Positions 3,501 to 43,590 of a DNA stretch of 64,000 bases are shown here, piece by piece; the first letter of the stretch is position 1, and each line of letters opens with the position of its first letter. Both the position numbers and the translations under genes were made by a program. The notes below the pieces were generated by a model. The model was not told where the DNA came from. It saw only the letters and a program-made list of their open reading frames with translations, and searched no databases. This stretch comes from Owenia fusiformis (lineage: Eukaryota > Annelida > Polychaeta > Sabellida > Oweniidae), in assembly GCA_903813345.2 (NCBI GenBank), contig CAIIXF020000005.1, positions 37,141,375-37,205,374 on the forward strand, read 5' to 3'.

Positions 3501-4897
3501 TGTACGTGTACGTAACTCAAACGTAACTCATCCTGAGAATCTTATTGGAGCAAATTATGAAATATTGAGGAGGACTTGAAGGTGAGGATATCTGAGGAGC
3601 GATACATTTAAGTGAGGACAACTATTAAGACAAGTGAGGATATTGTTGAGGACATATAAAGAGAATGATATCTAGTGAAGACAAGTAAAGAGGACATTAA
3701 GGCCAACGAGGATAAAATTGTGAGGACCAGGAAGTTCTTCAACCCTAGATACCGGCTTTGACCACACCACGAATCTATGAGTAAGTATTGCATGATATAC
3801 CAATGTCAATAATCATTTGTTTATTGCTATGCGATTAATTTGGGTACTCATTAATTGCTAGCTGCAAATGGTGAGTTGAGTGTTTGAACCTTCCTTATAA
3901 TAGTAATGCCTCTAAATTAAAAGGGTAGTTGCTTAAAGTCTGATAAAGGCCCTGCTTTAGAATGCACAAAATTTCCTATATCATCATCATCATCATGAAC
4001 CTTTATTATTTGTTTTCGAAAAATGGTAAATGACATGAAATAGTCTTTATATAGCCTAATCTTGTAATAAAAATAAAAATTCAGATTCCAATTTACAAAA
4101 ATAGAGCTCTCTTTTGAGATGGGAAGTCGAACAAATGCAAAGGGTAAAGAATAAAATGCTAACAATCTGTTTTAACAGTAAAAAGTGGGATAGGCCTACA
4201 CAGACTTAGCTTGGTGAAATAAACATCTACTCGTAAATCTTTTGAAACCATTCATAAATGTAAAAAATAACGTAGCTCATAATGTATTCATTATAATATG
4301 TACTGTACCTTTGTATTGTCGTGTACTTAAGAAAACTTCTGACATAACATGTAAGTGACTTAAGAGAGGTAGTTAATGATTAAGATATTAAGACAATACC
4401 AGTTGGTTTTGTATTTGGACGCTTATAAATTATCATCAGTCAATAAAAGGTAGCCAAATGTAAAATCCATTAAAATGAAAGTTGCAAATGGAAGGGTTAA
4501 TTTGAAAAGCAATACTGTAATAAAGTGAACTTATACAAACTTTTTCGCCATTACTTTACTTAAATTAAACGTTAAAATAAAACTCAATGGGGTGGCATGG
4601 GATTATCTTAAATCACATTTAAGCAAGAGAAATCATAACAGAAATGGATTAGTCAAGAAAGAAAATTTAAACTCTAAGAACTTTCTGGTAAAGACAGTCA
4701 GACTCGGAGCGCACGGATTTATTTTTCATTAATTTTGGTTAAGACATTGGAGTTTTCTGCTAGATCATAAAATATCTAGGGCACCGGGATGACAATAGTG
4801 AATGGAGTAAGTACTTGTAATCTTTTGCTGATTAAATTATACGTTTAATTGGTCATATGTTGTTCTTTATTGTAAGGTACCTTGCTTTGTATTTCAG
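512..4897. other. Intergenic region, no gene recognised
   Basis: No convincing exon was found on either strand. The short open frames here lack family motifs and splice partners. Polyadenylation-like AATAAA sequences of the upstream gene lie near 663-695. An imperfect direct repeat sits at about 869-905 and 970-1006, sharing the words TTTGATAACTC and AATACCAGTGGA. Around 3560-3735 there is a degenerate purine-rich array of GAGGAC/GAGGATA words. The right end probably holds a 5' untranslated exon of the NPH3-like gene, because a TTTCAG acceptor at 4892-4897 directly precedes its start codon. Confidence 0.5.
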
Positions 4898-4921: not shown

Positions 4922-7169
4922 ATGGAGGTCTACCAACTGCGAGAGACGGGGGAATTCTCCGACCTTTCAGTGAGCGTTAATGAGACTGAGCTAAAACTTC
5001 ACAAGTTCCCAATGATCTCGAAGTCAGGTTATTTCAGACAACTTCCACAAGACCAAGACGTTGTAACGATTGATAACTTCCCGGGTGGGGTGACCACCTT
5101 CAACATGGTGGCAGATTTTTGTTACAACATCGATATTAAGATCACCAAGGAGAATGTGCTATTGTTGCGCTGCGCAGCCGAAGTGTTGAAGATGACGTCA
5201 CCAACAAATTTGATTGAAATCACAGACAAATACATCAATGATATGATGACATCTGCCAAGCTCAGTAGATCAATCAATACTGTTGTTGACCTTCTCACTC
5301 AAGCTTGCTCACTGGGTGACGTAGCTGAAAAGGCTGGTGTCACAAATACGTGCATTGAAGCCATGGTTGACACACTTGTGAGGACAACAATATACAGTCC
5401 GTCAATCAGCAGGTTCGGAATCACTCGTAGGGAAAACGAATGTCTGGAAAAAGTAGAAAAGTTACCGTTTGAGATTTTCCTTTTGGTATTGAAGAAGGCG
5501 AGGGACCAAGATGTGTCGTCTACACTTCTGGCCAAGTTGGTTCAGAGATACATTGCAAAATTGCTGCATATTGAAGATGAGAAGGCTGAGCCGAGTGATA
5601 AAGATTCTGGCCACGAAGAAGAAGAGGTAGATGCGTCCATTGAAGTACAGACTAATGATACATCAACAGCACAAGAGGACTTTATCAAAATTGAGCAACT
5701 CAACGAAAGTGATACTGAATCGAATAATACAGGAGCTGTTAATGAGCAATCAACAAACAATGATAGCAAAGAAAGTAAAGCAAAAGACACGGTTGAACCG
5801 AATGTGAATCATTTAGTTGAAAGCATATTAAGTGAAGTTCCTGAAAACACTCCGTTTTCGGATGTTGTCTCAACGGACTGGGCAGCAAGAGTTTTGAATG
5901 TTGCAGGCTCATTTGATGGCAAATGCAGAGACATGCTTATCAAACTTGCAAGCCAAACCTTACACAAATTCAAATCTGATGACTTGATTAAACTCGAGCC
6001 AACTCTCATGATCGAGGTTATGGAAAGTGCAAAGAACAACCTTAACCTACCACCGGCTGTTGTGTGTCGGGTGGTGGATGACTACCTTTTAGGTATTGCA
6101 CAAGCTGGTGCTTTTTCCGTTGAGGTGTTTGTGACTGTAGCAAAATTGGTCCCCGATGAGGACCGGGTAAACTGTGATATCCTTTATGACGCTATGGAGA
6201 CACTTTTGAAAACAGGTAAGAGCAGATGTAACAGAAATTACGTTTCCACGTCCTTGTTGAGTAAGTCAAACTTGTTTAGTTCAAGCTTCACATTATCTTT
6301 TACAACAAAGTCCGATTTTCACTCAGTATACATAAAGTGAATATTTGACTTTTTTCCAGATAAATGCTAAAAGCAAATTGAGTTTATGTATCATTGCAAA
6401 GTCATTCACAAAAATCCAAGCCATTGCACTGTTGAAACTGAGGCTGGTGTCTTTTTAGATCAAATAAGTATAACAGATGAAGAACGCACTGCTCTCCATA
6501 AGATGGTTGACTTCTCTAAAGTCAACGAAAAAACTCTTCAAAAGGCCTTTGTGACCAAAGTGGTGCCTTGTGAATACGTTACAAAAGCTGCGATAGACTT
6601 GTGTGCTAAACTCAGGGAAGAGCTCGCCAACGCCAAGAGCCTTATTAAGATACAAGATCGTGAGTTGAGGGAAATTTCAATGGGAAGCTATACACTAGAT
6701 GCTAGTCTAGGTATCAACGATATCTCAATAAAAGACAAGGATGTTTATGGTAAGAGAAATGCTGTCTCCCCACCTCATTGATGTAATATAGACTAAGTAT
6801 CCCGATATCTAATGTCGATGTCTTGTCGCTCAATTCTAGACATTTATTTGCATTGTAAGAAGGAGTAAAAAAGTTTGACCCTGACCTAATTTCGCCTCAG
6901 TTGACCATGTATTATATGTTACAGATATAGAGAGAAGAACTCCAGATCATACGCCGATCAGTCCGTACAGCAGTAGCAAAAGTTCGTATAGCAGTAGGCA
7001 CAGTCCGAGGGTGTCCCCGAGCGCAAGCACATTCCAGATCGCCCATGGCTACGCTGAACCGCGTTTGTTGGCGGGTTTTGATTCCGCCGACCCTTACAGA
7101 TCAACATCTGGTATTTCCTCAACGGCTTATAGTTATCTATATGGACATAAAAAGTACCCTAGATATTAA
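4922..7169 (+). CDS. BTB/POZ and NPH3-like domain protein (plant NPH3/RPT2-type architecture in an animal genome)
   Basis: Three coding exons, 4922-6215, 6459-6749 and 6925-7169, join in phase (all phase 1) to 609 residues. Residues 12-100 form a BTB fold with the NPH3-family version of the second half: FPGG (53-56), FCYN (66-69; plants FCYG) and LRCAAE (82-87). Residues 174-215 resemble the start of the NPH3 domain, ending YIAKLL where plants have YxxKWLP. An acidic Ser/Glu linker (218-297) follows. Residues 318-480 fit the core and C-terminal half of NPH3: VVDDYLLGIAQ, FVTVAKLVPD, LYDAMETLLKT, then TDEERTALHKMVDFSKV and VVPCEYV. Residues 481-503 look coiled-coil, and the tail (529-609) is Ser/Tyr/Pro-rich. 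Plant members are Cullin-3 adaptors in phototropin signalling at the plasma membrane; Cullin-3 binding here is inference. The ATG at 4922 follows an acceptor at 4897, so an upstream 5'UTR exon is likely. Confidence 0.82.
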
Positions 7170-7465
7170 CGCCTATCCTCAATTGATAAACATAATGTAT
7201 ACCACCTAATAAATATCATTGTACATCAATCGACACCATCTTTTATAAGTCAATGTCTATTGTAGCTCGAGATGATCAATTTAAATTATGCTAAAAATTA
7301 ATCGATGGGTTCAGATATCAATTGAATCGCTTGGATTTTTACATTATGAGATAAAATTTAATTAAAAAAATGTCAGCCATGTTTTTATGGTTGCTTGAGA
7401 TTCAACCTTTAAACCACATTGTATAAGGTTCAAAAAATCTGTAATGTTGAATATATGTGACTGTA

Positions 7466-7471: not shown

Positions 7472-7564
7472 AGAAATACATGAACGTGAAAAGAATATAG
7501 ATATTTATTTGCCATGGACGTCGCTTGGTCCAGGTCTGTTTTTATTCATTTATCTATCTATTGT

Positions 7565-8150
7565 AATTACATGTACCAGGTCGTTCAATAAGTTTACGGA
7601 AAAATGCTCTCATGTCACAGATTTTTGATCTTTCATCATGTGCAACTGCAAATGAAGGATCCCTATGTTTTTTGTTCTTATTTACTGTAAATTTCAAACG
7701 TAATGAGGGAAAATTGAGGTTCATAGTTTTCATAGTCATTTCAAGGATCCTGCTAGTCAATGCTGTGCCAGAGGGCCAAGAAATCAACAAAGAGTAATAT
7801 GCTAAATGGTAAGTAAGTAAAACTTAACCATTCAACCAAACTCTAAATTTTCCACCATGATAATGCACCCAGTCACACTGCTAATATTATGCAGGAAGCC
7901 ATCTGGCAAAATAGATGGCAAAGTTGCCCCAAGTTCCTAACTCCTTGACTTTGCTGTTTTCAACAGGATGAAGGATCAACTTAGAGATGCACATTGTAAA
8001 ACAATGCAACAACTTTCGACTGTAGTCCAGATTGCCCTTCAAACACGTTTTCACGATGGCTTCAGACTCAGAGCACAGTTTCAACAATGGGTTGAATACC
8101 AGCGATTGCGCATTAAACATGGAGGGGGGGTATTTCGAACAACTTATAGA
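7565..8150 (+). pseudogene. Decayed mariner-family transposase
   Basis: The frame from about 7851 reads FHHDNAPSHTA, the signature of mariner/Tc1-type DDE transposases around the second catalytic Asp. About 80 bases on, after a stop and a frameshift, the frame of 7950-8140 reads LLDFAVFNRMKDQLR and then QFQQWVEYQRLRIKHGGG, matching the family's third-Asp block and the C-terminal W..R...C...G region. No single frame joins these blocks, and the N-terminal DNA-binding part was not recognised, although 7575-7600 (GTCGTTCAATAAGTTTACGG) looks like a mariner end. The element is therefore dead. Its 3' end runs into the large inverted repeat at 8202-8667. Confidence 0.6.
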
Positions 8151-8201
8151 ACAATAGTTATGACTATTTTGTTCAGTTATATCATCTACACATACACGCC
8201 T

Positions 8202-8667
8202 AGCCATCAACAACGTACAGGTGACAAAATATACGGCTGTACGCATAAGCAGTACGTTGTCATGTTTGAAGCAAAAATTGTGATGTCGGATTAAAGATTT
8301 ATCTAAGGAATACAAAGTAGCATTTCGTGCTTAATTTCATGTGCAAGCTCTTGGCAAGACTTTTAACTATACATCTAATTTATTACGTTAAAAGATTCTC
8401 GAGCAGTGCTTGAATTCTTTAAAGGCAATTCCACCCAGAAAATGTTCACATGGACATGGGTGGAATTACCTAGTACTGTGCTGTTTGAGAATCTATTAAC
8501 GTAATTAAAAAGTTAAAAGTCTTGCCAAGAGCATGCACATGGAATTAAACATGAAATACTTCATCATATTCCTTAGATAAAATCTTTTAAAACCTACATT
8601 ACGACGTTTACGTCAAACAGCTAAAGTGTACACCCGTATATTTTGTCACTGTACGTTGTCGATGGCT
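8202..8667. repeat. Large inverted repeat (arms about 210-240 bp) next to the mariner remnant
   Basis: The arm at 8202-8437 pairs with 8457-8667 in inverted orientation with about 20 unpaired bases between them. Shared blocks include AGCCATCAACAACGTACAG against its complement at the far end, TCTTGGCAAGACTTTTAACT, and GGCAATTCCACCCA against TGGGTGGAATTACC at the centre. The arms differ by small indels. It is probably a miniature hairpin transposon or a fold-back rearrangement. Confidence 0.75.
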
Positions 8668-9351: not shown

Positions 9352-12300
9352 ATGACTAGCTATAGAAAAGGTTCGAGGAGAATAAACTATGGTTGGCTTG
9401 TTGTTGTTGCTTCTATGATCTCACATTTATTAATGTTTGGAATAAGTTGGTCCGTTGGGGTGTTTTTTGTTCTTTACCTGGATGCATTCAAAGAATCAAA
9501 AGAGGTTACTGCTTGGACCGGCTCGTTAAACACTGCTTGTATGAACGGTAGTTATAGGTAAGACTTAAAAAGGCTACTTTAGGGATTGACTGTAATGGAG
9601 GCAAGGGGTGTCACTTGATGTTTCCTGGAAAAACAATTGTAGTGGAACACATCCCGCCATTTTTTTTTTATCTCAAGCCACAGAATGAATGCTTATAATT
9701 AAAATTAATACCCAATATATGCTACACAATTAATTTCGTCAAAAGATGAACGCTGAAATTAAGTTGACGAAACCACTTATATTATTGATAGAGTCTTATG
9801 ATCCATTTTTTAGGTCCTACAATCAAATTTAAGAACAAATAATCCAAATCAAAAACGCTCGATACGTTACGGTTGATTTTCAAATTTCCAATCAATTTCT
9901 AAGTTCGTCGAAAGGAGATTGCTGTAGTCCCGTGGCTAGAGTTCATGTATATGGCTGCCCAGTACATATCATATTTTACTTCATTATTATTTACAAATAT
10001 ACAAAGTTGTTGATTTTCTTTCTCAGAGATATTTCTTTTTCTTTTTGACGTTTCGTAGGATGTCCATCCTACTTCTTCAGAAATAAAATTATATTAAATT
10101 AAATTAAATTATATTAAATTATATTAAAATTAAATTATATTAAAATTATATTAAAATTATATTAAGAAAATCAACAACTTTGTACATTACTACCAGAGAG
10201 ATGAACATTCATAGAAGCATTATTTACAAATATGTTTTTTACGCGGTAAACACGATACAAATATCGCAGTGTATGACAGATTCACCTGCGGTATATGGCA
10301 TACACATTAAGCAATGAGAACGCGATACGGAAGTACGGAATTGTGAATTACATCGATTCAACAAACGGGTTAAAGTCTATAAATTATCATAATGATTACT
10401 GAATCAACAGGTCAGTGTTTTGAATATATGAACTTATACAATTGAATAACATACACCAGTGGTACCTGTATTGTTTGATGTTGTTTTATATATGTGTTAC
10501 ACGCAAAAACTTCAAGGGAAACATCATTGCACATTATTACACATAAATAAACGAACCCCGTGAAGCTTATAAGTGACTTTTACATCCAAATCAACAGTTT
10601 ACAAAGACCAGATAAAGACCTGAAAACACGAGTTTTTGATCACGGTTTATACGTTACTGATACTTTCAGAAGTATCCTTTACCGATCACACATAATAAAC
10701 TTACTCAATCACTCCAGGATTCATAGTCTAGTGCTCGAAGCGATAAAAACAATGGTAATTTAGTGTACATTTAGTGTTGATTCTCTGAACCAATCAAATC
10801 GAGGCAATTTTGTATGGCGTTCACCGCAATGTGTATGTCATCTTCTCCGAGTGAATATGTCATATTACGCAGGTGAATATGAGGTATCAACTATATCATA
10901 TTTCAATGCGGAATATGCCATTCTTTTGCGGAATATCTCAGATACCGCAGGTGAGTATACCATATTCACCATAAATGTATGCCATATACTGCTTAACAAT
11001 GTTTGAAGATTCAAAATCAAAGGGTTTTGGATATTTTCTTGGATGAAGAAAAGAAGCATTCTAGGATATTTTCAATTAAATACGAACTCCTATGCAGTGT
11101 CTCGGTATAGACACTGCGGCGGGCAGATTATGGAATCCCCAAAATTTGGGGAAGATAGTCCTCCTTTTTGTCACAGATGTACTTGTTTTTCACACAACTT
11201 ATAAAATATATGTTCTTTTATGTTCACCAATAATTATTTTGTCAAAATATTCCAAAAGCAATGAAATATAAGAGGAAATACCCGCGGAAGGAATTCTGAG
11301 TAAAAGTTTTGTTGATAAAAGTTTACCGCACGTGTTGTTTATTAGTTAATACGCGCAAGTCAACCAATGAAATTGTCTAAATTTTACAATCACGCGACCG
11401 GAGCATGGGACTAAAACCAATCACGTCAGTTGTTTATTACGATGTTACCATGCTTACGGTGAGATACCTGCCCGCCGCAGTGATATATCACTGCACGGGA
11501 GTTCGAATTAAATAGTCTTGGGAGATTTTTTCGCCATCTAGCGACGGTCCTGAAGGCCATTATTCTATTAACATTAATGTCAGATGCCAAAATTTCGTCT
11601 TTGCTTCCAAAGCTCTTTGTCAGACATGCCAGGGCACTCTTAAAAATGTCAATAGACATGACAGAAGTTCACCCCCTGAAAAATTTCTCAAGTGAATACC
11701 AGTCAGCCATATACCAATTAGGCTACGTATCTGTGTTCATATCCACAATTCATGTCCGTGCACTCGTTTTTACCGATGTATTACATATAAATTAAAACTC
11801 ATATATTATAGTCCTCTCCCAATTTCTCATGCACTTCTACATTGCAGGTCCAGTGGCAAGCTTATTGACCAACAAATTTGGATATAGATCTACTGCAATG
11901 TTAGGTGGTATTTTGTCAGCTCTAGGATTAGCCACGAGCGCTTTTTCAACGGACATATACCATTTATATATTACATTTGGGATAATAACAGGTAATTGAC
12001 CTTACATTTATTCATCTGTAATGCCGGAAATGCTGCCAATACAATGCAAATTTTATTTTTTATTTTCATATTTTTGAGCCTTTCTATAACAATGTTATCA
12101 TTATCTTTATAAAATTTACCATTAGTTCTTACAATTGTAGTACCCGTCGGCATTTTCATATGAAAAAGCTCATAATAGATAATTAGTTTCATGAGAGTAT
12201 TACACTGTGCATGAACGTATTTCTTAACTGTGTCTTACAGTCAAATTAAATAAATAAATTTTCTTTGCTGAAATAGATAAATAAACAGGGTAACCTAGTA

Positions 12301-13524
12301 TTAATGTGTAGGCCTAATAAAAACGATTTGTGTCATGTGAGGTTCAAGCCGATGTATCACACGTCGCGGCCAATCACCGATCACTAATTGACCGTAAAAA
12401 AATGTAAAATGTAATGGTTCGTAAATGTAGACCAGCCTTGTTTAAAAATCAAAAAGGACTTTTAAAATAAATTGGATTGAACCGAAAGATATGAACCTAT
12501 ATAATGAACTCTCTCGAATTTTGAATTTTGTGTTGCAGGCAGTGCCTCGGGTATCGCCTACATTCCAATGATTTCTGTGCTGGCCACTTACTTTTCGAAG
12601 AACTTAACGCTTGCAGTTGCCATTGCCTCATCGGGTGTGGGGATAGGTACCTTTATATATCCACCCTTGATCATGGGTCTAGACTCAATGTATTCGTGGA
12701 GGGGTTGTACGTTAATACTAGCTGCCATAACCTTAAACATATGCGTCTGTGCAGCCATTATAGCACCTAAAAACAACCCTAATAAAGAAATAAAACCTGC
12801 ACCATCGACAGAGGATAATTACAATGTAGAGAGGGTTTGCGACACCAGCATATTCACTAATCTTAATTTTACGATCTTATGCATGAATCAGCTTCTCTAT
12901 TGCTTTGGACATTCAATCCTTTATGTTCATTTTGGAGAATACGCCATCACAATGGGCGTGGAAGAGGACCACTCAGTGCTATTATTTTCAATAATTGGAA
13001 TATCAAATTTAGCAGGGAAAATTATACTTGGAGTAATATCAAGATTTAGTTTCGTGAACTGCATACTTTTATATGCGCTAACAATAACAACAGCTGGATT
13101 ATTAATGCTAACCATACCGATTCAAACTTTGTATGCAACCTTAATTGCATCCTCAATAATTTTTGGTGTTTGCTCTTCAGCATTCGGGGTACTCCCGCCA
13201 GCTATTGTATGTCGGTTTCTTGGACAAAACGAACTTCCAACGGGGTATGGAATTTTATGTATATTCTCCGCAATAGGTATATTGCCAGGAGCCCCCATAG
13301 CAGGATTGTTGTTTGACTATACCAACCATTACATGGGATCGTTTTATCTTGGAGGCTCTATGATAGTCATAAGTGGGATTAGTATGGTTATTCCTTATAT
13401 CAGGACACGTCATAGATTATCACATGAACAGCGTGCTATAGATGGCACTGATTTGAAAAAACAGAGTCTTCTAAATGTTTCCGCTGATAATAATGACAAT
13501 GAAATCCTGACGAATATTGCTTAG
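9352..13524 (+). CDS. SLC16-like (monocarboxylate transporter-type) MFS carrier, tandem copy 1
   Basis: Exons 9352-9547, 11848-11991 and 12539-13524 (phases 1 and 1) give 441 residues. The start at 9352 follows a longer open frame; I chose it because it matches copy 2, with the same ACGTACAAAATGACTAG context. After a basic N-terminus comes INYGWLVVVAS in TM1, the SLC16/MCH-type signature, then GP-A-LLTNKFGYRS at the TM2-TM3 loop, AIASSGVGIGTFIYPP (TM4-5), WRGCTLILA, a hydrophilic central loop (about residues 195-225), and a second six-helix half ending GLLFDYTNHYMGSF. SLC16 proteins are 12-TM plasma-membrane carriers of monocarboxylates and related solutes; the substrate here is unknown. The exon 1 donor is disturbed: the GTAAG site used by copy 2 is shifted by 4 bases, but GTAGTT at 9548 restores frame. 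A TAG ends the protein 11 residues earlier than copy 2. Confidence 0.78.
9999..10187. repeat. AT-rich repeat bounded by short inverted ends
   Basis: The ends TACAAAGTTGTTGATTTTCTT (about 9999-10020) and AAGAAAATCAACAACTTTGTA (about 10165-10187) are inverted copies. Between them lies a low-complexity run of ATTAAATT/ATATTAAA words (10083-10165). It lies in intron 1 of transporter copy 1, has no counterpart in copy 2, and so was inserted or expanded after the duplication. Confidence 0.6.
11096..11497. mobile_element. Non-autonomous element with about 31-bp terminal inverted repeats
   Basis: The left end CAGTGTCTCGGTATAGACAC with CGGCGGGCA (11096-11126) is inverted at 11468-11497 (TGCCCGCCGCAGTG...CACTG). 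The interior has no open frame with transposase motifs. It lies inside intron 1 of transporter copy 1 and is absent from the same intron of copy 2. Confidence 0.6.
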
Positions 13525-15873
13525 GGGACTGACAATGTCAATGGAGTTTATTTTTGAAGATTATGAATATCTGACCTTTTTTTCATATGTGTTCTTTTGT
13601 CGACCAAAAAGCATTTAAAACACTAACGTTAGACATATTGCTTCATGTTTACGTGTAAAGGCAGAATCAGGGCTGGATGGGGTGACAAAATTGTAAGCAA
13701 CATGGACCTACCAATGTATTCTTCGATAACATAAATTGTTTAAGGATTTAAGCCTCGTACCCAGTGCAATAGTCCTTAAAAAATTCTGGAAATTTTACAC
13801 ATCGTCAATCTAATGATCACTTTTTGAATGGTAACAGTTTAATTTGGAAAAAATTAGAATTTAGAAAACATATCAGACACTTCTTTTGTTCTTGGTATCA
13901 TATGTTCGGAATGAAATGAAACATCTATCCGAATCTCATTGGAACAAAACGTCATATACACAACGTCTTTTGGTCTCTCAATTTAGTAATTGTACAAAGG
14001 AAAATTTGGTTGATCTAAATAAGTGTCTTGTTAATGAAATAAAAGGTTTACGTTAAAAATTTGTATCTATTTTGTGTTTTTTTGTTTTAATTTGAATACA
14101 TTTTGTTCAATCAACCAAATTTTCCTTTGTATAACTATAATATTGAGAGGTCTAAGAAAATGTTGTATATGCTATTTTGTTCCAACAAGGTTCGGAAAGA
14201 TATGTTATTTCATTCTCAAGAATTGGTAGAAAAGAACAAAAACAATTTCAGTAAAAATCAAAAAACATTCAAAAACATTTATAACAAAATATATCTAAAT
14301 AATTTTCGCATTAAGTTGTTTTCAATCAATGACCATTATTTTGCATAAATGAGAGTGTTTTTTACAGAATGTTTTCAATAATTGGTTTAAAGGAAAAACA
14401 ATGTTGAATTCAGTTCGCCATATCGATACCAATCCTTTGCACGAGATGATTGCCTCGTGTGTTAATTCTTAGGAAACAATGCATTGTTGAGTCTTGGGCT
14501 TAAATTCTTTCACACATTGCAAAATATTTCATACAATATCACTTGAAATACATGAAATGACCCATAAGAATATATTTTCGGGGAAACCTTTTGCAAGAGT
14601 AATTGCTGTTTGTGTTAGTCGGTATCATGGACCGTCGCCATGACAACAATGCAACACTTACCATTTAACCTGTATTAGCACGTTATTCCTCATGATACCA
14701 TTTATAGAATTTTACTGTTTATCGGTTTCATTAGACTTTGTCTATTTATGTAACAATGTCATACTTTCTCATGATATTCATGATCGATTGAGACTTGGAG
14801 GAAATAGTTTCTTGAGTTGTAATCTCAGAGTAAAGATATTGAGTTCAGACTGCGGATTCCACTAACTGGGGTTACCAAAGTTCATTGATTACTACAAATG
14901 TCTATCATGAATACAATGCGTGTATCACTGTTTTGGAATCTTCAAATGAGAATGGGAGGGTCATGATCAAAAGGTTTAACATGTGGCTGAATGGGAAACA
15001 TTTTAGGTGAATTTAATCATAATATAATTAGAGGTTATGTCACTATGACGTGAAATATGCCTGAGTTCTCCCAATATAGGCCGACCTTGGGAGGCTCTAT
15101 ATTTGGGCAAGGACGAAGGCATATTTCACGTCATAGTGACATAACTGATGTATTACATGCCTTTGTTCCCATGGTTACTTTGTATCAATGACGTGACGTC
15201 ATGATATTATCATGGTTATTAAAGAAATCTAATATCAAAACGAGGTAAGCAGGCTATATCGGGGTAATCGGGCAATATCGGTGGATATAGCTCGCTAACT
15301 TTCCCATTGACTTCCATACAAATGCTTCGCTAGGTATGTAATACTCTCATCTATTGCCCCACAACAATGACTGACAGAATATTTATAAAAAAATTTAAAT
15401 GTTGCCTGGAGTACCAGTTGTTTATTTGTAGTGCACTTTGTGTAGATGCAAAATAATAATTATTTTTTTACTACATTTGCTCTAGACAGGACTGAGAAGA
15501 TGGATGAATGGTAGATATACCACAAGCAATCTTTTGTTACTGCCTTCCCGGGGCAGCCATTGTGGGAAAACAATACACAAACTAATTTGAATCAGTTCAA
15601 TTGGGGTGTCCTTGTTTTCTTTCGCCGTATAGCGTCTGTGTATAATGTAGGCCTAACTGTCTAAATATACAACTCAAATAAATAATATATAGTACACGAT
15701 ATAAAAGCCCAGTGGCGTTTGCATTAACAGGTTTTACTGTTTGTTAATTCGTTGTATTTCATCATTCATCACAGTCTGAACGAAATCGGCATAGCGGTGC
15801 ATCTAGGCTATTCATACAAAATCGACAGCTGCATGCGCTGGCAGAATAGGAAAAAAATCAATAAACGTACAAA
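13525..15873. other. Spacer between the two transporter copies
   Basis: No gene seen. It holds an AT-rich inverted repeat (about 13850-14020 against 14105-14290, sharing CAACCAAATTTTCCTTTGTA); a block at about 14440-14700 repeated downstream of copy 2 (about 19200-19490); and the palindromic element at 15031-15344. From about 15750 the sequence matches the upstream flank of copy 1 (about 9232-9351), which marks the start of the duplicated unit. Confidence 0.6.
15031..15344. mobile_element. Palindromic miniature element, family A, copy 1
   Basis: A 29-base arm at 15034-15062 (starting GTTATGTCACTATGACGTGA) is repeated perfectly in inverse at 15117-15145. A second weaker inverted pair (GTATTACATGCC near 15150 and GGTATGTAATAC near 15334) encloses the rest. 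A near-identical copy of about 313 bases lies at 49771-50083, and a partial inverse copy at 29605-29692, so this is a dispersed family. No coding frame is seen. Confidence 0.8.
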
Positions 15874-18800
15874 ATGACTAGAAATTGTTCGAGGAGAATC
15901 AACTATGGTTGGCTTGTTGTTGTTGCTTCTATGATCTCACATTTATTAATTCATGGAATAAGTTGGTCCGTTGGGGTGTTTTTTGTTCTTTATCTGGATG
16001 CATTCAAAGAATCCAAGGGAGTTACTGCTTGGACGGGCTCGTTAAATACGGCATGCATGTACGGCATAGGTAAGACTTTAAAGTATAGTTTGTTAAGGGT
16101 AATGGAGGCAAGGGGGTGTCACTTGACCTGTAGGTGTTTCCTGGCACATCTTTTGTAGTGGGACCCGTTCCACCATTTTTCCTTTTTTCAGCCACAGATT
16201 TTGTAAAGAATGAATGCTAACAATTACAATCCAATAGATTCTACACAATCAATCTCGTCAAAAGATGAATGCTGAAATTAAGTTGACGAACCACTTATAT
16301 TATTGATACATGTATATACACACGAGTCTTATAATCCATTTTGTGAAAGATTTTGCCGACTTGCCATTAAAGAGGTCCTCAAATCATATATGAGTACAAA
16401 TAATCCAAATCAAACACGTTGATTATCAAATTACCTATCAATATTTCAAAGCTCGTCGAAAGAGATTACTGTGGTCCCGGGGCTGGAGTTCTATATGGCT
16501 GCCTCGTAGATAGAAGGCGTCCAATTTTATATAAACTAGCAGGGTGATAGTTGAGGGATAGCTTTGATCATTTTGCACCAAGGTGACTCAGGAGCAAATT
16601 TTCAAAAAGTATGCCCAAAGGACGAGGGAAAGTATCGCAACAGATTTCAGACAGATACTGTATGTCAGGCCAATGCATTATCTCCAGGAAAAGCACTCAT
16701 AGAGAGATGATAAAATAATTTTGACTTTGAAACAGGGAAGATGCAAACATGTTTTTTCTGAAATGTTGTCCTGATTTTCAACCCCTTCCACCCTTGCTTT
16801 TTCGATTTTTGTTGCATCGATATGTTGCGTTTTGACACACAATTAAACCCTTTAAATCTTCAGAAAATAGCCAAAAGCCAATGTATGACTGTCCAAAATC
16901 TGTTGCGATACTTTCCCTCCTGCTTTTAAAAAGGGCCCAACGTTTTTCCCGCAAAGATGTTTTTGAACACCCTCCCTTGCGAATTTTCATGTCTAATAAA
17001 AAGTGAACTTGGAAATAACATTCTTAGGAAAACTTGTGCTCGTTGTCAGAATAGTTGGAAAGAATAGTTTACAACACTTATGTAGCCCAGTGCAGCTCAA
17101 AAGAAATAGGGACAAATCTAGGCCCATGCTACTTAATGAAAATTTCAGGCTCCCAAACTTATGGAGGGGAGTGTAACATACAATCACAAACATGATATCA
17201 AACGAGCCAGCATACTTTATATAACATAAAGAATCCTATATCATTCTCTATTGAAAATTTAAAGCATGATTGCATGTATTAACCCATTGCTTCACCCTCG
17301 TGCATTATCAGAATGAGTTCGTACATTTAATAAAAAATAAACATTTAATAAGACAATAGTTTTCGATGATGGTCTTGTGTTCGTCTTTTAAATCACGACA
17401 AAAATGCATTGCTCATATTTTATAGTTCTTTCCCAACTAGTTTCTCATGCACTTCTACATTGCAGGTCCAGTGGCAAGCTTGTTGACCAACAAATTTGGA
17501 TATAGATCTACTGCAATGTTAGGTGGTATTTTGTCAGCTCTAGGATTAGCCACGAGCGCCTTTTCAACGAACATATACCATTTATATATTACATTTGGGA
17601 TAATAACAGGTAACTGACTTTAAGATTTCTCCGGAGGATGATTTTCTTTTCTGAAATAGATAAATGAACAGGATGACCTAGTTTTCTCTAAATAACTTGT
17701 GTACGCAGGCATAATAAAAATGATTTACGCCGTGTGAGATTCAAAAATCGATGTATCGGCCACGATTACGGCCACCTGCCGACCGTAAAAATAATGTAAA
17801 ATGTAATGGTTTGTAAATGTGGCCGCCTTGTTTAAAAATCAAGGACTTAAAAATGAATTCGATTGAATCGAATGATTTGAACCTATACTGTATATCAACC
17901 TTGCTTGGTATGTTGAATTTTGTGTTGCAGGGAGTGCCTTGGGTATCGCCTACATTCCAACGATTTCTGTGCTGGCCACTTACTTTTCGAAGAACCTAAC
18001 GCTTGCAGTTGGCATTGCCTCGTCGGGTGTTGGAATAGGCACCTTTATATATCCACCCTTGATCATTGGTCTAGACTCAATGTATTCGTGGAGGGGTTGT
18101 ACGTTAATACTAGCTGCCATAACCTTAAACATATGCGTCTGTGCAGCCATTATAGCACCTAAAAACAACCCTAATAAAGAAATAAAACCTGCACCATCGA
18201 CAGAGGATAATTACAATGTAGAGAGAGTTTGCGACACCAGCATATTCACTAATCTTAACTTTACGATATTATGCATGAATCAGCTTCTCTATTGCTTTGG
18301 ACATTCTATCCTTTATGTTCATTTTGGAGAATACGCCATCACAATGGGCGTGGAAGAGGACCAGTCAGTGCTATTATTTTCAATAATTGGAATATCAAAT
18401 TTAGCAGGGAAAATTATACTTGGAGTAATATCAAGATTTAGTTTCGTGAACTGCATACTTTTATATGCGCTAACAATAACAGCAGCTGGATTATTAACGC
18501 TCACCATACCGATTCAAACTTTGTATGCAACTTTAATTGCATTTTCAATAACTTTTGGTGTTTGCTCTTCAGCATTCGGGGTACTCCCGCCAGCTATTGT
18601 TTGTCAGTTTCTTGGACCAAAAGAACTTCCAACGGGGTATGGAATTTTATGTATATTCTCCGCAATAGGTATATTGCCAGGAGCCCCCATAGCAGGATTG
18701 TTGTTTGACTATACCAACCATTACATGGGATCGTTTTATCTTGGAGGCTCTATGATAGTCATAAGTGGGATTAGTATGGTTATTCCTTATATCAGGACAC

Positions 18801-18949
18801 GTCATAGATTATCACATGAACAACGTGCTATAGATGGCACTGATTTGAAAAAACAGAGTCTTCTGAATGTTTCCGCTGATAATAATGACAATGAAATCCT
18901 GACGAATATTGCTCAGGAGACTGACAATGTCAATGGACTTTATTTATGA
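15874..18949 (+). CDS. SLC16-like (monocarboxylate transporter-type) MFS carrier, tandem copy 2
   Basis: Exons 15874-16069, 17466-17609 and 17931-18949 (phases 1 and 1) give 452 residues. The exon 1 donor is a regular GTAAG, so the TM2 region reads MYGIGPVASLLTNKFGYR without the two-residue loss in copy 1. TM1 carries INYGWLVVVAS. The large last exon encodes TM4-TM12 with GSALGIAYIP, GVGIGTFIYPP, the central loop KPAPSTEDNYN, LPTGYGILCIFSAIGI and GLLFDYTNHYMG. The C-terminus is polar and ends NVNGLYL. The last exon differs from copy 1 by only a few percent (for example HSVLL/QSVLL and GQNELPTG/GPKELPTG), whereas introns 1 and 2 differ greatly in length. Transport of small organic acids across the plasma membrane is the family expectation; the substrate is not predictable. 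This copy looks like the intact member of the pair. Confidence 0.83.
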
Positions 18950-19750
18950 AGATTATGAATATATGTCTTTTTATTTCATATTTATTCTTTTGTTGACCTT
19001 CAAAAAGTCAAAAACAGGCCTCCGTAAGATAGCTTTCAATCTTTGGAAACACTGAAGATAGATATACAGTATTGCTTCATTTTTACTCGTAAAAACCTGG
19101 ATGGAGTGATGGTTGGATGTTCACTTGACCTACCAATGTATTCTTTACCATAACGTAAATTATTTAAGGATTTAAGCTCTGTATTCAGTGTGGAATGTCC
19201 ATTTCATGAACGTGTCGCTCTCCAAAATTTGCACGAGATGCTTGCATCGAGTGTTAATTTTAGGAAACAATGCCTGAAAGGAATGGTCATTCCACAATGC
19301 ATTGAGTCCTGGGCTAACATTCTTTTCACACATTGCAAAATATTTTATACAATATCACTTAAAAGATATGGAATGACCCATAAGAATATACTTTACAGGA
19401 AACCTTTTGCAAGAGTCACTTGTGCTTGCGTCAGTTGGCATCATGGATCGTCACCATGACACTACAATGCAACACTTACCGTTTGACCTGCATTAGAACA
19501 TTGTTTGTTATTATTCCTTATTATTACCACCTTGCAGGGCCTGTTCTAGGGGTTTTAGTACTAGTTGAGAAGACATTGTAATTGCTATATTGACGTGAGC
19601 AATATTGTGTCGGGCGTTAATGACTTTAGTCGAGCAATAATGACATTATCCGCCCGGCTATGTTCCCCGGGAAAAGTGATATCGTTCAGTGCGTAAGATT
19701 TTCTATTTCAAATTTGCTATTTCAGCCCTGGGCATTAACGGTGGTAATAA

Positions 19751-25326: not shown

Positions 25327-25657
25327 TCGTTGTTGGCAGAATCCCCACGACGTTTTTTCTCACAACGTGCATCAGTATCATATGTTTTAGAAAATGTACA
25401 TGTTTGCGGAAAAATAGCTCAGAGGACAACAGAATCTTCCATTTACTTCCTCACTTAAGTTACATAAACGGTTTTTCGAAAAACAGTTAAGATCTGCACT
25501 TTTAACCCAAACCGTTTATGTAACTTAAGTGAGGAAGTAAATCGACGATTCTGTTGTCTTCTGAACTATTTGTTCGCAAATATGTACACTTTCTTAAACA
25601 TATGATACTGATACACGTTTTTGTTAAAAAATGTGATGGGAATTCTGCTTACAACGT
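25327..25657. repeat. Inverted repeat with about 148-bp arms
   Basis: Arms 25327-25474 and 25509-25657 are inverted copies (perfect block AACCGTTTATGTAACTTAAG with its extension; also ATCAGTATCATATG), separated by about 34 bases. Divergence grows toward the outside. A nearby 20-base palindrome ACCAAAACGAACCGTTTTGG lies at about 25253-25275. No transposase frame is present. Confidence 0.7.
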
Positions 25658-26807: not shown

Positions 26808-29800
26808 TTAAGCACTAATATGAAGTGATGTTGCATTGGGTGTTCGGACAGGAGTTGCTGCAGAGGTGGATGGTCGCATTTTCTCTCTTGGGAAGTAAGC
26901 ACTCGGGGACAACGTCCAGTTGACAAACTTAGAACTTGGAAGGGGTGATGCACTGAAAACAAGAGAACACACATCAGAATTAATAAACATACGGTATACA
27001 GATACAGATAATACACATTTTTAAATCACAAGCACAATTTAATTTATACGCACTATTTTATTCATAAGCACTATTTGATTCAGAAGCATTATTTAATTCA
27101 GAAGCATTATTTAATTTCTATTGCTGTTTGGTATTTCATAGAGCTGTAATTATGAAATTTTAATTTAGATGTTTTAACTCTAATATCAATATTTCACAAG
27201 CACCTGACAACTGACATCTGACACCACATTATCAATGTTTTGATGTCATGTTATGATTTAAATCCATCCAAAATTGTGGAATACCATGGAGCATGATAAA
27301 CAATACATGAAAATATACATTGGCATAAAACTCTACATTGTCAATTTAAACCATTGAATTTACATGTATTTTGAAGACATATTTTGGGCACAATGGCAAT
27401 TTGATGTTTTAACAGTATATGCACATCACATATTTTTTATTTATTTTTTTTTTATTTATTAAAATCATATAAACATATATACATGTACATATAAGTGATA
27501 ATGACACCCTAGTGGGTGTATGTCTTATCACAAGCTAAAATATTTAAAAATGGCATATTGTTAGTTACATTTATTATTGATGTTACAAAGTGTCTCAAAG
27601 TATAAATTATGTAAGCCAAACTGGGAAACAAACAAAAATAAAAATGATGTACATTATAAAAGATGTAATAAAACATTTACATCATTCTATGCAATGCTGC
27701 GCACCATTTATGCATTGTAGCTTTTCTGAAAGTTTAAGGTCATGACTTATATCACTGACTTACTTCTTCTGATTATTGGTTGCTATGAGACCAGTATCTG
27801 AACTAGTATCGGAATCTGCTTTATTCAAGATGGTGGATTCTAATGTTGCTCCAGCACTACCATGACGATCTACACCAGCTCCACCTATTTGACCACCCCA
27901 AGCAGACCTTGGTCCACGACGTCCTTTACTTGGACTGAAATTAAGCAATAAACATATGCAAATTCTGAGGGGCTATTTAAGTCAAATATTAATATGTCAT
28001 TTGTATGTCAATTGAAATAAATTTAGTCTTTAGGAGCTCAGAACCATAGTTTTATTATGCTCAAGAACATATGTGAGTTCATAACCTCATTGATAATTAA
28101 AACTCAGTGATATATTTATAACTACTGATAGTTATTAGACAACACTGCGATATTTGGTGCTTGCTTGGGATGATACAAAATAACTTTGAAATCAATAACC
28201 CATCTATTTCTACTGACAATATACAAGCGGCAATAGTCAGCTACAAGTTCTAGATGAGTAATATACTGTGTTTTAAAGTTTTTAGCTAATTCAAATTAAT
28301 TTTCAAATTGTTTTCACATTAAAAAGGCTTTCCCCATCATTACATCTCATGTTTATGAGACTATTTGTGACACATTCAAATAGATATCACAATTAATATT
28401 GGTAATTAGAAATTAATATATAGTTTCTATCAATTAATTGTTTATTGTTATTGTTATTACTATGAACATCCTCACAAAAAGTGAAAAGATAATTCATAGT
28501 ATAATACTTTCAAATAAATTGAGCAGAGACTGGGAATGAAGATCTTATAAGATTGCAGGGTCGAGAGACTTCTGTACAATATTATGTACAGGGTGGTAAA
28601 AAGAATTGGAAACCATGCCGCTATTTTCATCATATCTTTGTCATTTTAGGGGTTTACTCTTTGATATTTGGCACATTTGTACTGCAGGCAAACAAGTTGC
28701 ACTATACATGGTACATCAACGTATATAAGATAGTTTAACCAGTTGATCCAAACATCAATTTTACTCAATGAACATGTGTTGTTTTACAACATCAAACAAC
28801 TACTAAGGGGTGTATGGTACTTTGACCAATCAATCTGAAATCCACCTTCCAACACATTCCAAACACCAATTCTACTACATACACAACATGAAACAATCAC
28901 TATTATTAAATGCTTAGGTAAAACATCAATGTTTTTCCTGGTGAACACATTCATCAGACCCCTCTATTACATATGTTAAATCTTATCTCACACTGTAATA
29001 ACATCACCGTCAAAACATTCAGATTTTTTTATATATTCTAGCTATTCACTCATTTCCCTTTGATTTCATAGCTTCAAAATAAAACAAATATTTCATTCTA
29101 TTTACCCCAGGTCAGTTATTCATTTTATTGACTATCAATCCAATATGCATGATGAATTATTTCAAGTACTACATTAAGTCTAAACAACAACGATAACGTA
29201 AGGTTGTATACTTGATGCAAGGTTGTATAGATGGTTGTGGCTATTCTGATGAGGCATTATGGGAGTGAGCATGCATTGTCCAGGTTTGATAAATGGGTGC
29301 TTTGACCTCAGGGTGGCTTAGAGCAGAGGAAAACATATGTCCATTAGACAGAGAGAGAATACATTTTGAATATATAAGACCCCATCATTATTAGGTTCAA
29401 TCACATCTGAACTCAAAAACACTTTTTAGAATATAATGCACAAATGCCTCCAGTAGATATATATACTCTTTTTTTATTCTGATGATAACAAAAGATATAG
29501 TAACTAAATATTTAGAGAGATTTGAACAAATCATTACACAAATACATAAATAGATCTACAGATGTGGCATTTAACAGTATGTTAATTGCTATAATTTGTT
29601 CTTGCCCAAATATAGAGCCTCCCAAGGTCGGCCTATTTTGGGAAAACTCAGGCTTATTTTCCGTCATAGTGACATAACCTCTAAGTATTTATTGAGAAAG
29701 AGTTTTTCAAAAATTGTTATATTTTCTTGTACATGTATAATGATTCTAATTAGCTTTCTCCGACTCACCTGAATTTGAAATCTGGTGGAAGACTGAAATG

Positions 29801-32800
29801 TAAAGTGGCCTCCCTTCTAGTTTTCATAATCTGCTTGTTAAAGTCCTTCCTCGCATTGCCATAGCCATTGAATATATGGTCACAAAATAGCAATTTTCCT
29901 CCCTCATACATGAGGAACATACCAGGGACTACATTATGTCGGCGTAGCAACAATGGTTGGGAGTGATCCGCCATCTCTGATGCAGTGACAATGTCATAGA
30001 GAAGCAGACGAAATGGGTCGTTACGGGCCTGCAGACAGGGCCTGGTTCTGTTCTTGCTTTTCTCTGAATATATGTGCTCCAACATTTCCATGCTAGGGTT
30101 GGCATGGGGGAAGCTGGAATCAAATAGCATACAAAATTGTGAAAAAAAAAAAATATATAAACCAAGTAAACAATGCTTACATGATAGTATGACAAAATGC
30201 TGCCACCTGGTACGTTCTTGCAAATGGTTTCAAAAGTGGTTTCAGATGCAGACCCAACAGCCAAATGTTAAATGCTGGTCACAGAATAGATCCCAAAACT
30301 TCAGATATACCAGCAGGCAACAGGCAAAATCATTTGTTACGGTCAAACTATGCATTGGGAATTCAGTTGTCTCATTAGAGGATACTTGGAATATAATTTG
30401 CATGAATGTAATCCAGATATGATGGTCGTTACGTATTTGGAAAATATGGCAAAGAAAGATAAGCCAATTACTTCACAAGCCAGACTTTAAAAACTGATAT
30501 ATCATCTTTCTTTAAACCTAGATAATAATAGATGTACTTCAAAAATGATAGGATTACATTTTTCAGGGTCACACCATCATATATATTTCAATTCTAAATG
30601 ATAAGGTTCTAAACTTAATTTATTTCCATTCCCACATTAGAAAACTCAATTCATGAAAGAAGAGCCAGTTCATCTTCTATTTTTCTCTTTATAATATACT
30701 TACTAAGTTGTGACAATGCCGACCACAATAAGTTGTCTCTCGGGGACTTGGTGTCTCACAAACTCATCATACTCTATATCCTTAATGACTGGAACCTTGT
30801 GGCGTGTACACTTACACATCGGTCTTTCTTCACCTAGCATCTCAGCCCTGTTGGAAAATTTTGAAAATGAAAACAACAATTATCGGGGTTGTTGAGTTGT
30901 AGAGCAATGGGCACACCTAGAGTAGTTACAGAGGCTTTCAACATCACCATGGGGTCGTGAGTTCTAGATGCATGAGGTCCTTGCATTTATTCAATTTATA
31001 TTCCATGTACAGTTCATGTAAAATCTGTCGAAAGGAAATGTTTAGACCAGCTAATAAGTTTAATTAAGGGAAATCAAGATAAAATGTAGTTATTAGATAA
31101 AATTGATGTATTTTGGGATTATTAGGATTGTATTTTCAAATTAATTTCCAGAAATTTTCAAATGAATCGGTCGAGCGGTTTCTCTCTAAATGCTTTTAAA
31201 GTCAAAAAGTGTAGGTACAATAAATCCTTACACTTTTTACTTGATGGTAAAGCATACATTAGGGAGCAAATTGCAACATTTCATTGTCCTATAAATTAGA
31301 TGAAATTACATTATTGGTAGATAAAATCAGTGTTTATTTCACGCTGAGTGCATTAAATATTTTTTATGTGTGATCCAATACATTAATTCTTAAAAAATGA
31401 AGTGATTCAAAAATTAATAGCACTACTTCAAAAGTAATGAGTAAATTAGAACAACAAAATTACAATCCAATAAACAATAATTTGTACAATGCTTTAGAAA
31501 ATGCTAAATTACTACTAAAGGAAACTCCCTTTGGGATGGCCAAAAAGGCATCATTTTGGCCAAAAAGGCATCATTTTGGTAGAGTTTTCAATACAAAGTA
31601 AGACTGCAGTTTATGAAATTTTATTATATTTTCCATAGTATTCAGACTCGCTTCAAATCCTTCCAATTTTTTAGTGTTGCATTTAACAGTTGACCCTTAC
31701 CTGAGAGCAACTGGACACGTGCCTCTGGGTGGGGACCAGGTTCTTTCATGGGGTAAGGTTAGGGGGCTCTTATGGGGTGAAGACTGAAATGTTCTTGTCG
31801 TACCAGCAGACCTAAGGAATACAATATCACATTCAATTATCAATAAAATTTCAAATGTGACAGGGATATCCAGGTATACCAATGTTCTTCCTGAACTGTG
31901 TTCCAATCTTGAAATTAACCAATATTGCAGACTATGAAAGGTCAAAATGTTCATTTTTTCAATAATGTTCAATTTTTGATGACTTTAAAACCTCAACAAC
32001 CAGGTGCAATTCAGATTTGAATTGGTCATTTTCAAATTCAAAACAGTGAACATAACAGATATACACTGCACAGGATGCATTCATATTTATTTATGTTTAT
32101 TTTATGTTTGATTTATGTGCTTCACGTAACTCAATATCTAGGTTTCTACATATTTAAAATACCATAAATCACAATGTGATATTTTTTCAATAGTTAACAT
32201 TCTGATGACCATCAATTATAAGTGCATTATCATTATGACTGTTATGCAATACTAATAACTAAGTGCAGATTGAAATCAGAATGATATGTAATGAGACATG
32301 CAGTAAATAAGTGTTACAACTAGCTAGTTGCAACCAGTTACTGGTGCCCCATACACTGTCTACCCCAGTTGATGTGTATATTAGGGGGTGGGGGTGAGGC
32401 AGGGCCTGAACTTTGGGCTAGTCGACTGGTCATTACAATAATCATGTTATTTGCTGATATTATCATAAGCATAAGGGCACAATATTGCAACAGATCTGAA
32501 AGCATGAAAGAAAAAAAAAAATTCATGAAGACTAGTTTGTTGTGAGACTATACATGTTAATCACTCACCCGACCAATGACCTTGTGTTCCCTATATTTGG
32601 TGTGGCACGAGACTGGGCTATGGATGCACCATCCAAAATTTCAGTTTCATAAACCTTATCGTTGAACTTCACTGAGGATTTGTTCAGACCACCCTCTGTG
32701 ATTTCAGTCACTGAACTACCTGGACGATCTTTCTGCATGGAACCTTTACAAAAAACAAGAAATAAGTAAGTAACATTTTTTACAAATCAGGAAATTGATC

Positions 32801-38800: not shown

Positions 38801-41800
38801 TTTTCGAAGTTTTCAAGAAACAGGCCTCATCAGTTTGCAAAATAATCATACTTTTGTTGAATGGAGAGCTGGAGTCGTTGACGTGCCCATTCTAATATCG
38901 TTTCCGTCTCTTTGTCGTCCCTGGAATCTGGTTGAATGATCCAGCCTAAAAAGCATAACATGAATGTATGTCACCATTCTAGTTTCTTTGAATTCTGTTC
39001 AAGTCATGATGAAGTAAAAAAAATCAACATACTACTGTTTTATTTTTAATTTTACAATGATGTTTATACATGTATGAGTATACAATGTTTTCTAAAATTG
39101 TGCAAAAGTTTCTAAAAATGTCACAATTCTACTATATTTTAAGTCATTATATTCCTATGAAGATCGTGTTTTTTCCAAAAGATGACATCTAACAGTTTTG
39201 ATTTTTAAGATCATGTGACTTTTGAAAAAGACATCCCCTTTGCCCACCGAGTAAATTTAGCCTTTGTTCATCTTTCATCTCAAATAAGTCTCCCATATAT
39301 CTGACTAGATATCTCAATTCCATTTGCTAAAAAAGACTTAGGGAAAATATTTACTATGCTTTGTTGCCTCTTTAAGAAAATCAACTTAGATTTTCATTTG
39401 TAAAATGATTCAAATTCTTACCTTTTTCTTCACATTGCTTGGAGGAGAGTTGGAAGTTTATAACCTGGTAATAACTGTTTCTTTCCTGGTTGGCGACTGC
39501 TACAAAACATAAATACAATTTGGTGAAATATGTGTATGATTGACATGTCCAATGTTCACAGAATGGAGAAAAAAGAGCATTATTTTTTCCAAGAAACTCT
39601 CCAGTCTATGCTTATATGTCTAGTCTTCATTTCAATTTGCAATATATGGCAGAACATGTTTTCTGTGTATATGTATTTGAATCACCTCTTTCAATTTGTG
39701 TCTTACTAGTCTCAAAGATGTATGTTAATAGATTCTCATAAAATATGAAAGACTAAAATCACAAAACCTTTCTTTTTTGATTTTTTCAATTTTTTCTTCT
39801 TTCCTAATGTCATTTGTGACTTCTTTCTTGTCTGTAAGTGTTGTAGTTTATCAATTTGATCTTCAGTTTTATCATTTAAATGAAGAAAATCAATGAGAGA
39901 CTCAACAGTAACATCATTTTTCTTTCCTGTAGTATGTTTTGAGACATTTGGTAAAACCATTTCCATTTTCGATTCCCGAAGATGGTCATAATTTTCTGAT
40001 ATTTTCCTATTGAGATACCATTTTTGATACCAGAAATGTCCAGAATATACATGCGTTCTTTCTTCACTATATGTTTTATACATATCCTTCTCATATACCA
40101 GTTCTCTTCGGTTTACAGTCCAGTTTTCCGATAGAATGGAGCAATCATAATTCAGTATCTTGAAAAAACTATTGTCAGACAAACACAACGAAGAGAAAAG
40201 TGGTGGCCATTCAATCAGGAATTAATCAACGAGGGATATGTCATTCTTATATACAGAAATTCTAATATTACATTTATATGTCCTATAATATAAATCATGA
40301 TAACAATAACATAATGACAGGTCCCTATTCTAATATACAGAAGGTGATAATTCAAAGAAACTAATATTGGTTGGACCAATTAGCAGAAGAAATTAAATGT
40401 CTTTTGCTATGCTACAATCTATAGGGAGTCAAGGACTTTATTTATTTCAGTAGAATGAAATTCTTAATTAATCACAGTATCTCAACAAGGAAATGACTGC
40501 GTGCAGAGAGATCAGACTTATAATTAAATTGCTTTTATGAATGAGAGCCCCTCATCTCAAGGGAGGTCAGATATACATTGTATGTCACGATATATTATTA
40601 CAATTTTACAATTTGGCATCAAATGTTTGATAATATACCGGTACATGTAAACAAGCACATAGTTGAACAGCAATATGTGGATTATCTTAAATCCAATTAT
40701 CCTGAACAATTAAAATAAGCAGGTATAAATCACATCTTGTATAATTTAAAATTATTATAAGCATACTGTAGAAGGCTTTTTACAAAAGCATTTCCAACTA
40801 CAGTAGCACCTGTATATCTGAACACCTCCCAATCTGAACACTTTTTTTGGTTCCACTTGTTCCTCCCATTGACTCCCATGTTAAAAAAAACATGAAATGT
40901 GAACACCTCTCAATTTGAACAGTGTACAGTTATCTTTGAAAAATTAACCTGTCAAATCTGAACACTTTTCATAAGATTTCACATGTTTCATACAAAATTG
41001 CTCAAATATTGTTATGATATCAAAACTTTGGGAAAAAACTTGAATGGTCGTAATTATAATAGGGCTTTCCAGCATGACTAGATTCATTTGAATCAAATTT
41101 TCAAATTTCTGAAATGCCGTAAAGCTATGTGGTCAAATGAACTATAAATATGTTCAGAAAATGTATTCACATTTCTTCAGAATTCGGAATCACGTGAATG
41201 CAAAAACCTTGAAATGTGAACACTTCAATCTGAATGCTTTAACCTGGTCCAATGGCATTCAGATTAGACAGGTTTTACTGTATTGCTGTATACAATGTGA
41301 GCTTTCCCCATACATGACTTCTGCTATGAATAAAGGATTTGAGATTTTATGTTTACCTCGACTTCCTGCCTCGGAAAGCCTATCACTCATCATATGACTT
41401 GATACAGAGGCTGTGTCATCTCCTGGATGCAGATAATGTCTGTTTGATGATCGCCTTCCTTCATTTGCTAAAATAATATTTTTAATCATTTCAACTTCAT
41501 ACATTATGATAAACTGTGACATCTCATAATCGTGCCTCAGTCATCCAAAGGTATCACTATGACATAAATTTGCAAATAGTTGATATTCTTACATTCTTGA
41601 GAGGCCTTTTAATATTGGATATATGGAGTAGTAAAATCCATTTCCAAGGATGTAAGAGAAGGAGGTTTGATACTAAATATAATGCCTCACTTACACATTG
41701 AAGGATCCATTGCCTTGGGGTATTTTATTTTACAATGTAAATCTAGTTATTGTGGGGGCACATACTGTATTGGCACTACTAATAATGTAAGTAAAAAGTC

Positions 41801-42876: not shown

Positions 42877-43590
42877 TGTTGATGGTGTCAGCAGTTTCCT
42901 AGTTTCAAAACGTCAATAACAATTCAATTGTTCCCGCCATTTTTCCACCAATCTGCAATGAAAGTATAATACATTGTATGAACTCAATAGAAATCCAGCT
43001 TGTTTATTCAATTTCGAACGACCAATGTTTTAAAAAAAACTTTCGAAGAAACTTTGAAATAAAAATTTGTAACACTGACGACGAATTCTGAATTCCTGAG
43101 GCTGTACAAATAATCACGAATAAGCTAATATGATTCTTGAATTTAAAGTCCTTTCGAAAAGTTATAGATCTTGCTCGGTTTACATTCATAGAAAGGTAAA
43201 TTTTGCGTTTTATAAACCTGATCGAAAACGGGCACTTGCTACTTTTCCGGCGGCCATATTGAATTTCCACTTCCGCATGAACCTTGTTGCTGAGCAACTG
43301 ATGCTCTCCTCTTATTTTAGATAAAACGCTTGTATAAAATTCCTCTGTGTACCTTCCGAATGAAAAAAGAGTTAGTTAATTCTTAAGAATTCACTCTTTG
43401 TAAAGTTTTGCGTATATAACTCTGAGAAATAGGGAAAGGTATAATCACACTTTAGTATACAAAATCATTGCTAGGTGGCAGCACTTCATTATTGCTAATT
43501 GATTAGTGTTTTGTGCTGCCATCTTTCTATCGTTATCAAACTTTTCTACATGGTTTTATTTCCGGTATTTTGACCTGCTTGCTTGGATAC

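Follow-up and report, generated by a model that had tools for sequence, protein, structure and literature searches.

The window analysed here is a 64,000-nt stretch of Owenia fusiformis DNA (assembly GCA_903813345.2, contig CAIIXF020000005.1, positions 37,141,375-37,205,374 of the forward strand), and all coordinates given below are relative to its first letter. It contains an intact three-exon gene on the plus strand (4922-7169), which encodes 609 amino acids plus a stop codon and is open in frame throughout. Exon 1 (4922-6215) encodes residues 1-431 and ends one base into codon 432; it carries the BTB domain, a linker, the NPH3 region from its first to its middle part, and an acidic insert (BTB and NPH3 as defined by Pfam). 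Intron 1 (6216-6458, 243 bases) begins at the donor junction cag/GTAAGAGC and ends at the acceptor junction TGTCTTTTTAG/atca. Exon 2 (6459-6749) contains the end of the NPH3 domain, followed by a stretch that is charged as judged by eye, and is separated from exon 3 by intron 2 (6750-6924, 175 bases; donor junction atg/GTAAGAGA, acceptor junction ATGTTACAG/atat). Exon 3 (6925-7169) encodes a C-terminal tail rich in serine and tyrosine, and the stop codon. Both introns are of the GT..AG type, as the initial annotation of this locus had described, and a single frame is kept through exons 2 and 3. The 431 open codons of exon 1 compare with a mean of 24.3 in-frame stops (minimum 9) in 2000 first-order Markov copies.

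An alternative exon 2 acceptor at 6402, which would give a protein of 628 amino acids, was tried and rejected. This acceptor lowers the score for NPH3 to 55.8 bits, from 67.5 bits with the acceptor at 6459, and we therefore favour 6459, the site chosen in the initial annotation. At the 5' end, a candidate extra first exon (4789-4806, plus strand; ATG..gga/GTAAGT) can be spliced to 4898 with canonical donor and acceptor sites and with the frame kept. This putative exon would possibly extend the protein to 623 amino acids, and translation could equally well begin with the ATG at 4922. Shortly 3' of the stop codon, a motif search finds a candidate polyadenylation signal, AATAAA (7208-7213, plus strand), and further AATAAA/ATTAAA motifs at 7361 and 7466. 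The window holds no second NPH3 copy detectable by tblastn, which gave five matches outside the three exons, all with E values of at least 1.4.

Domain identity of the protein

The assignment of a BTB-NPH3 architecture is strongly supported by the Pfam profiles, both of which match the 609-residue protein above their cut-offs: NPH3 (PF03000) with 67.5 bits (E=2e-18; cut-off 27) and BTB (PF00651) with 33.2 bits (E=6.5e-8; cut-off 20.5). The BTB/POZ domain occupies residues 5-99 (4934-5218, plus strand), and its E value is 4.2e-9 when only the first 130 residues are used. The better of the two stretches matching PF03000 lies at residues 373-453 (6038-6523, plus strand), corresponds to profile positions 174-253 of 258, and is split by intron 1. 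The NPH3 match is independent of the BTB domain, since a 323-residue piece starting at about residue 170 scores 70.9 bits; a chance match, or one carried by the BTB domain alone, is ruled out by this value together with the E value of the full protein. The absence of any NPH3 match beyond the BTB domain, named in the initial annotation as the outcome that would speak against it, was thus not what we found. Several parts of the protein contribute to the score, which rises from 59.1 to 70.9 bits when residues from about 170 to 294 are added, and from 55.5 to 67.5 bits when exons 2 and 3 are added to exon 1. Taken individually, residues 131-266 match no Pfam family up to E=10, and exon 2 has no NPH3 match in Pfam up to the same limit.

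Five short motifs, all named in the initial annotation, are present in the order given there: FPGG at residue 53, FCYN at 66, LRCAAE at 82, YIAKLL at 210 and EERTALHKMVDFSKV at 439. We take these to be marks of the plant NPH3 family, and consider the Pfam score to be the actual test. The order of the motifs is that of the plant NPH3/RPT2-like (NRL) family, and so is the order of the larger parts, with an N-terminal BTB domain followed by NPH3 and then by a C-terminal segment. The Owenia gene differs from that family in its location in apparently animal DNA, and may also differ in the acidic insert inside its NPH3 region.

The protein shares its BTB domain with the animal BTB-BACK-Kelch and BTB-zinc finger proteins, and most of its PDB matches are to these (animal zinc-finger proteins for the most part, and a small number of Kelch-type and related proteins), but it has NPH3 where those proteins have BACK, Kelch or zinc finger domains. 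Pfam reports no Kelch or zinc finger domain for exon 1 or the full protein, and no BACK domain for exon 1 up to E=10 or the full protein up to E=1, bearing in mind that the HMMER filters drop most matches above an E value of about 0.1. One might nevertheless suppose that this is an ordinary animal BTB-BACK protein whose helical domain has come to match the NPH3 profile by convergence, as the PDB matches and the lack of any Pfam match for residues 131-266 alone could suggest. The PDB matches, however, mirror which structures have been solved, and the strength of the NPH3 match, the ordered motifs and the missing BACK match make such a convergence highly improbable; the Pfam result for the full protein nearly refutes it, and we reject membership of the BTB-BACK group.

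As a small control with another animal BTB protein, the two exon ORFs (99 and 116 residues) of a BTBD16-like gene in the same window match the BTBDG BTB and BTBD16_C profiles and have no NPH3 match up to E=1. A decoy also had no NPH3 match, and carries little weight because it was only approximately reversed (614 residues, compared with 609). Among the NCBIfam profiles nothing comes near a cut-off, and a further search gave matches for none of five ORFs. A structure model of exon 1, made with no alignment, is poor (mean pLDDT 51.2), and a fold search with it returned no match at E<=0.001 among 1128; with such a model and such a search result, the fold adds nothing to the case.

Genomic setting and composition

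To the right of the gene are several coding regions of families that are established marks of animal DNA. These include a monocarboxylate transporter (MCT) gene and its tandem copy (PF07690, E=2.6e-27 and 3.2e-28; MCT1 in the PDB, E=8.7e-19), a rhodopsin-type GPCR (PF00001, E=1.9e-18; opioid receptors are the top PDB matches), a FAM194 exon (Pfam, E=9.8e-19) and the BTBD16-like gene (BTBDG BTB, E=5.9e-8; BTBD16_C, E=2.3e-14). The BTBD16-like gene (48106-51275, plus strand) encodes another BTB protein of the window. The tandem MCT genes and their flank (9363-14645 and 15879-19461) share five repeat blocks that are 86-97% alike. On the minus strand, two ORFs in the region 54650-58043 weakly resemble GABA-B-type receptors, with matches that fall below the cut-off (ANF_receptor, E=0.0015; 7tm_3, E=0.0035; PDB, E=0.0021). 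For three more ORFs of this area Pfam gives no match.

The left side is different. The ORF at the left edge (2-508) matches nothing in Pfam (E up to 1) or NCBIfam (E up to 0.1), and has two matches in the PDB, with E values of 0.44 and 1.1. The proposal that animal neighbours flank the gene on both sides is therefore borne out for one of them, the right (MCT, GPCR, FAM194 and BTBD16).

The composition of the gene roughly fits that of its neighbours, as the initial annotation had proposed. Its coding GC content (0.428) is slightly above that of five neighbouring coding pieces (0.371-0.425), and the GC contents of its introns (0.34 and 0.37) compare with 0.35 for the window. Its codon usage correlates at 0.74 with four pooled neighbouring pieces, which is also the correlation between the MCT and GPCR genes, and at 0.59 and 0.71 with the MCT and GPCR genes alone, respectively. 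The window contains no N. Together, the right-side neighbours, base composition, codon usage and lack of N support an animal setting for the gene, and the data establish the gene itself, its domains and the animal setting on one side.

These observations bear on whether a plant, algal or symbiont fragment was joined to animal DNA, through contamination or an error of assembly. The gene does lie near the left end of the window, where the left-edge ORF has no family match. Against this, the sequence is free of N, GC content and codon usage roughly fit, and the first MCT-gene repeat starts at 9363, 2.2 kb downstream of the gene, and we consider an artefact of this kind very unlikely.

Just downstream of the gene (7567-8170) are broken frames that resemble a mariner-type transposase, as judged by eye; the single ORF searched there (7941-8291) has no match in Pfam. 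Inverted repeats with short spacers and 72-88% complementarity occur at 8298-8581, 13896-14228 and 25353-25630, and are perhaps small palindromic transposable elements. Besides the left-edge ORF, seven ORFs of the window (7941-8291, 15865-16155, 29768-30229, 46276-46728, 54015-54497, 56490-56738 and 58296-58562) have no Pfam match up to E=1, and 54015-54497 has no PDB match either; two more (39739-40221 and 42037-42912) have Pfam matches below the cut-off only. Scans of the window for tRNAs and Rfam families found none, and a bacterial-type promoter scan of 7500-8300 is uninformative here.

Origin of the gene

In plants, NPH3-type proteins connect the machinery of protein degradation with blue-light receptors and with cell polarity. 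A resident animal gene of this type, if truly such, would either imply an earlier origin of the NPH3 domain or constitute a clear case of plant-to-animal transfer. If such genes were common in animals, the label “plant-specific” would be wrong for BTB-NPH3, and an animal relative would reveal which part of NPH3 function needs no light signalling.

We consider the best explanation, with a probability of roughly 60%, to be a genuine and intact BTB-NPH3 gene that is resident in an animal genome, is a diverged relative of the NRL family by descent from an early eukaryote, and encodes a dimeric Cullin-3 adaptor. An early eukaryotic BTB-NPH3 gene would most likely have been kept in some animal lineages, an age that we infer. 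Plant members of the family would be expected to score much higher on PF03000, in which case the gene would be long established in its lineage and would not stem from recent contamination with plant DNA. Points against the favoured explanation are the slightly raised coding GC content, the lower codon-usage correlation with the MCT gene alone and the lack of a family match for the left-edge ORF.

The competing possibility is an old horizontal transfer, in which an animal ancestor gained an NRL gene from a plant or streptophyte alga and the gene then diverged, with introns that are either old or later gained. Excerpts of the published record lean in that direction: one survey of 17 eukaryotic genomes, which found BTB-NPH3 proteins in Arabidopsis alone, calls them possibly plant-specific (PMC1257465), and another paper, also in excerpt, says that NPH3 arose at the origin of plants (PMC4327156). 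The titles and opening lines of abstracts returned by a literature search for animal or transferred NPH3 include none on animal NPH3, which does not exclude database entries. Transfer is countered by the three exons and the local composition, and a recent transfer would also be countered by the divergence of the NPH3 match, provided that plant members do score much higher. We regard transfer as unlikely. The choice of old inheritance, the most likely origin, is a judgement and not a result.

Searches for relatives in viral and prokaryotic DNA gave a null result, which is expected under either origin. One set of scans used six short peptides of the Owenia protein alone, and so would detect close relatives only; no pattern matched in viral contigs, and the 19 stretches found in prokaryotic contigs included no relative. 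Patterns built on the plant motifs matched nothing in either of two scans of viral contigs and a single stretch in prokaryotic contigs, which belongs to a planctomycete MAG. We take this stretch to be a chance match, as neither of the two ORFs listed for it looks NPH3-like by eye and PF03000 has no match in that genome. PF03000 also matched none of 14 control genomes, although a zero there does not show absence.

More broadly, we tentatively propose, at slightly less than even odds, that plants did not invent BTB-NPH3. The architecture would have originated in an early eukaryote, been lost in the animals that are usually studied, and survived in some invertebrates as a Cullin-3 adaptor that serves membrane or polarity partners independently of phototropin, so that the plant adaptors of phototropism and auxin polarity would have animal cousins.

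Possible function

Plant NPH3 is described as having a BTB domain, an NPH3 domain and a coiled coil, and is reported, in the excerpt of the source, to serve as the substrate adaptor through which a Cullin-3 ligase acts on phot1 (PMC8531357). Its binding to Cullin-3 appears in excerpts of two papers (PMC8531357; PMC10441985), the first of which also describes its biochemical function as unresolved. For the Owenia protein, the BTB domain would most likely mediate dimerization and, judging by homology alone, binding to Cullin-3, the NPH3 domain would most likely bind either a client or a partner associated with the membrane, and the serine-rich tail would most likely be a regulated segment. The phototropin link of plant NPH3 is not transferable to the Owenia protein, which by homology is probably a Cullin-3 adaptor with a client other than phototropin.

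The protein might instead be an animal NPH3 scaffold that works without Cullin-3, for example together with 14-3-3 proteins and a kinase of the AGC type at the membrane, as discussed for plant NRL proteins; the origin proposed above is compatible with this. Phosphorylation of a C-terminal RxS motif in plant NPH3 is followed by 14-3-3 binding, according to the same excerpt, which reports such a site for several but not all NRL proteins (PMC8531357). The Owenia tail is likewise rich in serine and contains two RxS motifs, at residues 553 and 557. Unlike the motifs of plant NRL proteins with a C-terminal RxS, these lie about 50 residues before the end of the protein, away from its extreme C-terminus. 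A proline follows each of the two. Their number is also not above chance, being equalled or exceeded in 45.6% of 10000 shuffled tails, and the 14-3-3 part of the plant mechanism is therefore unsupported here. We consider the scaffold somewhat unlikely, and retain the Cullin-3 adaptor as the preferred reading.

A further feature of the protein is the acidic insert inside the NPH3 region (residues 216-300; 5567-5821, plus strand), which has 25 D/E and 6 K/R among its 85 residues. In a low-confidence, single-sequence model, residues 221-291 are assigned neither helix nor strand, and the insert is probably disordered.
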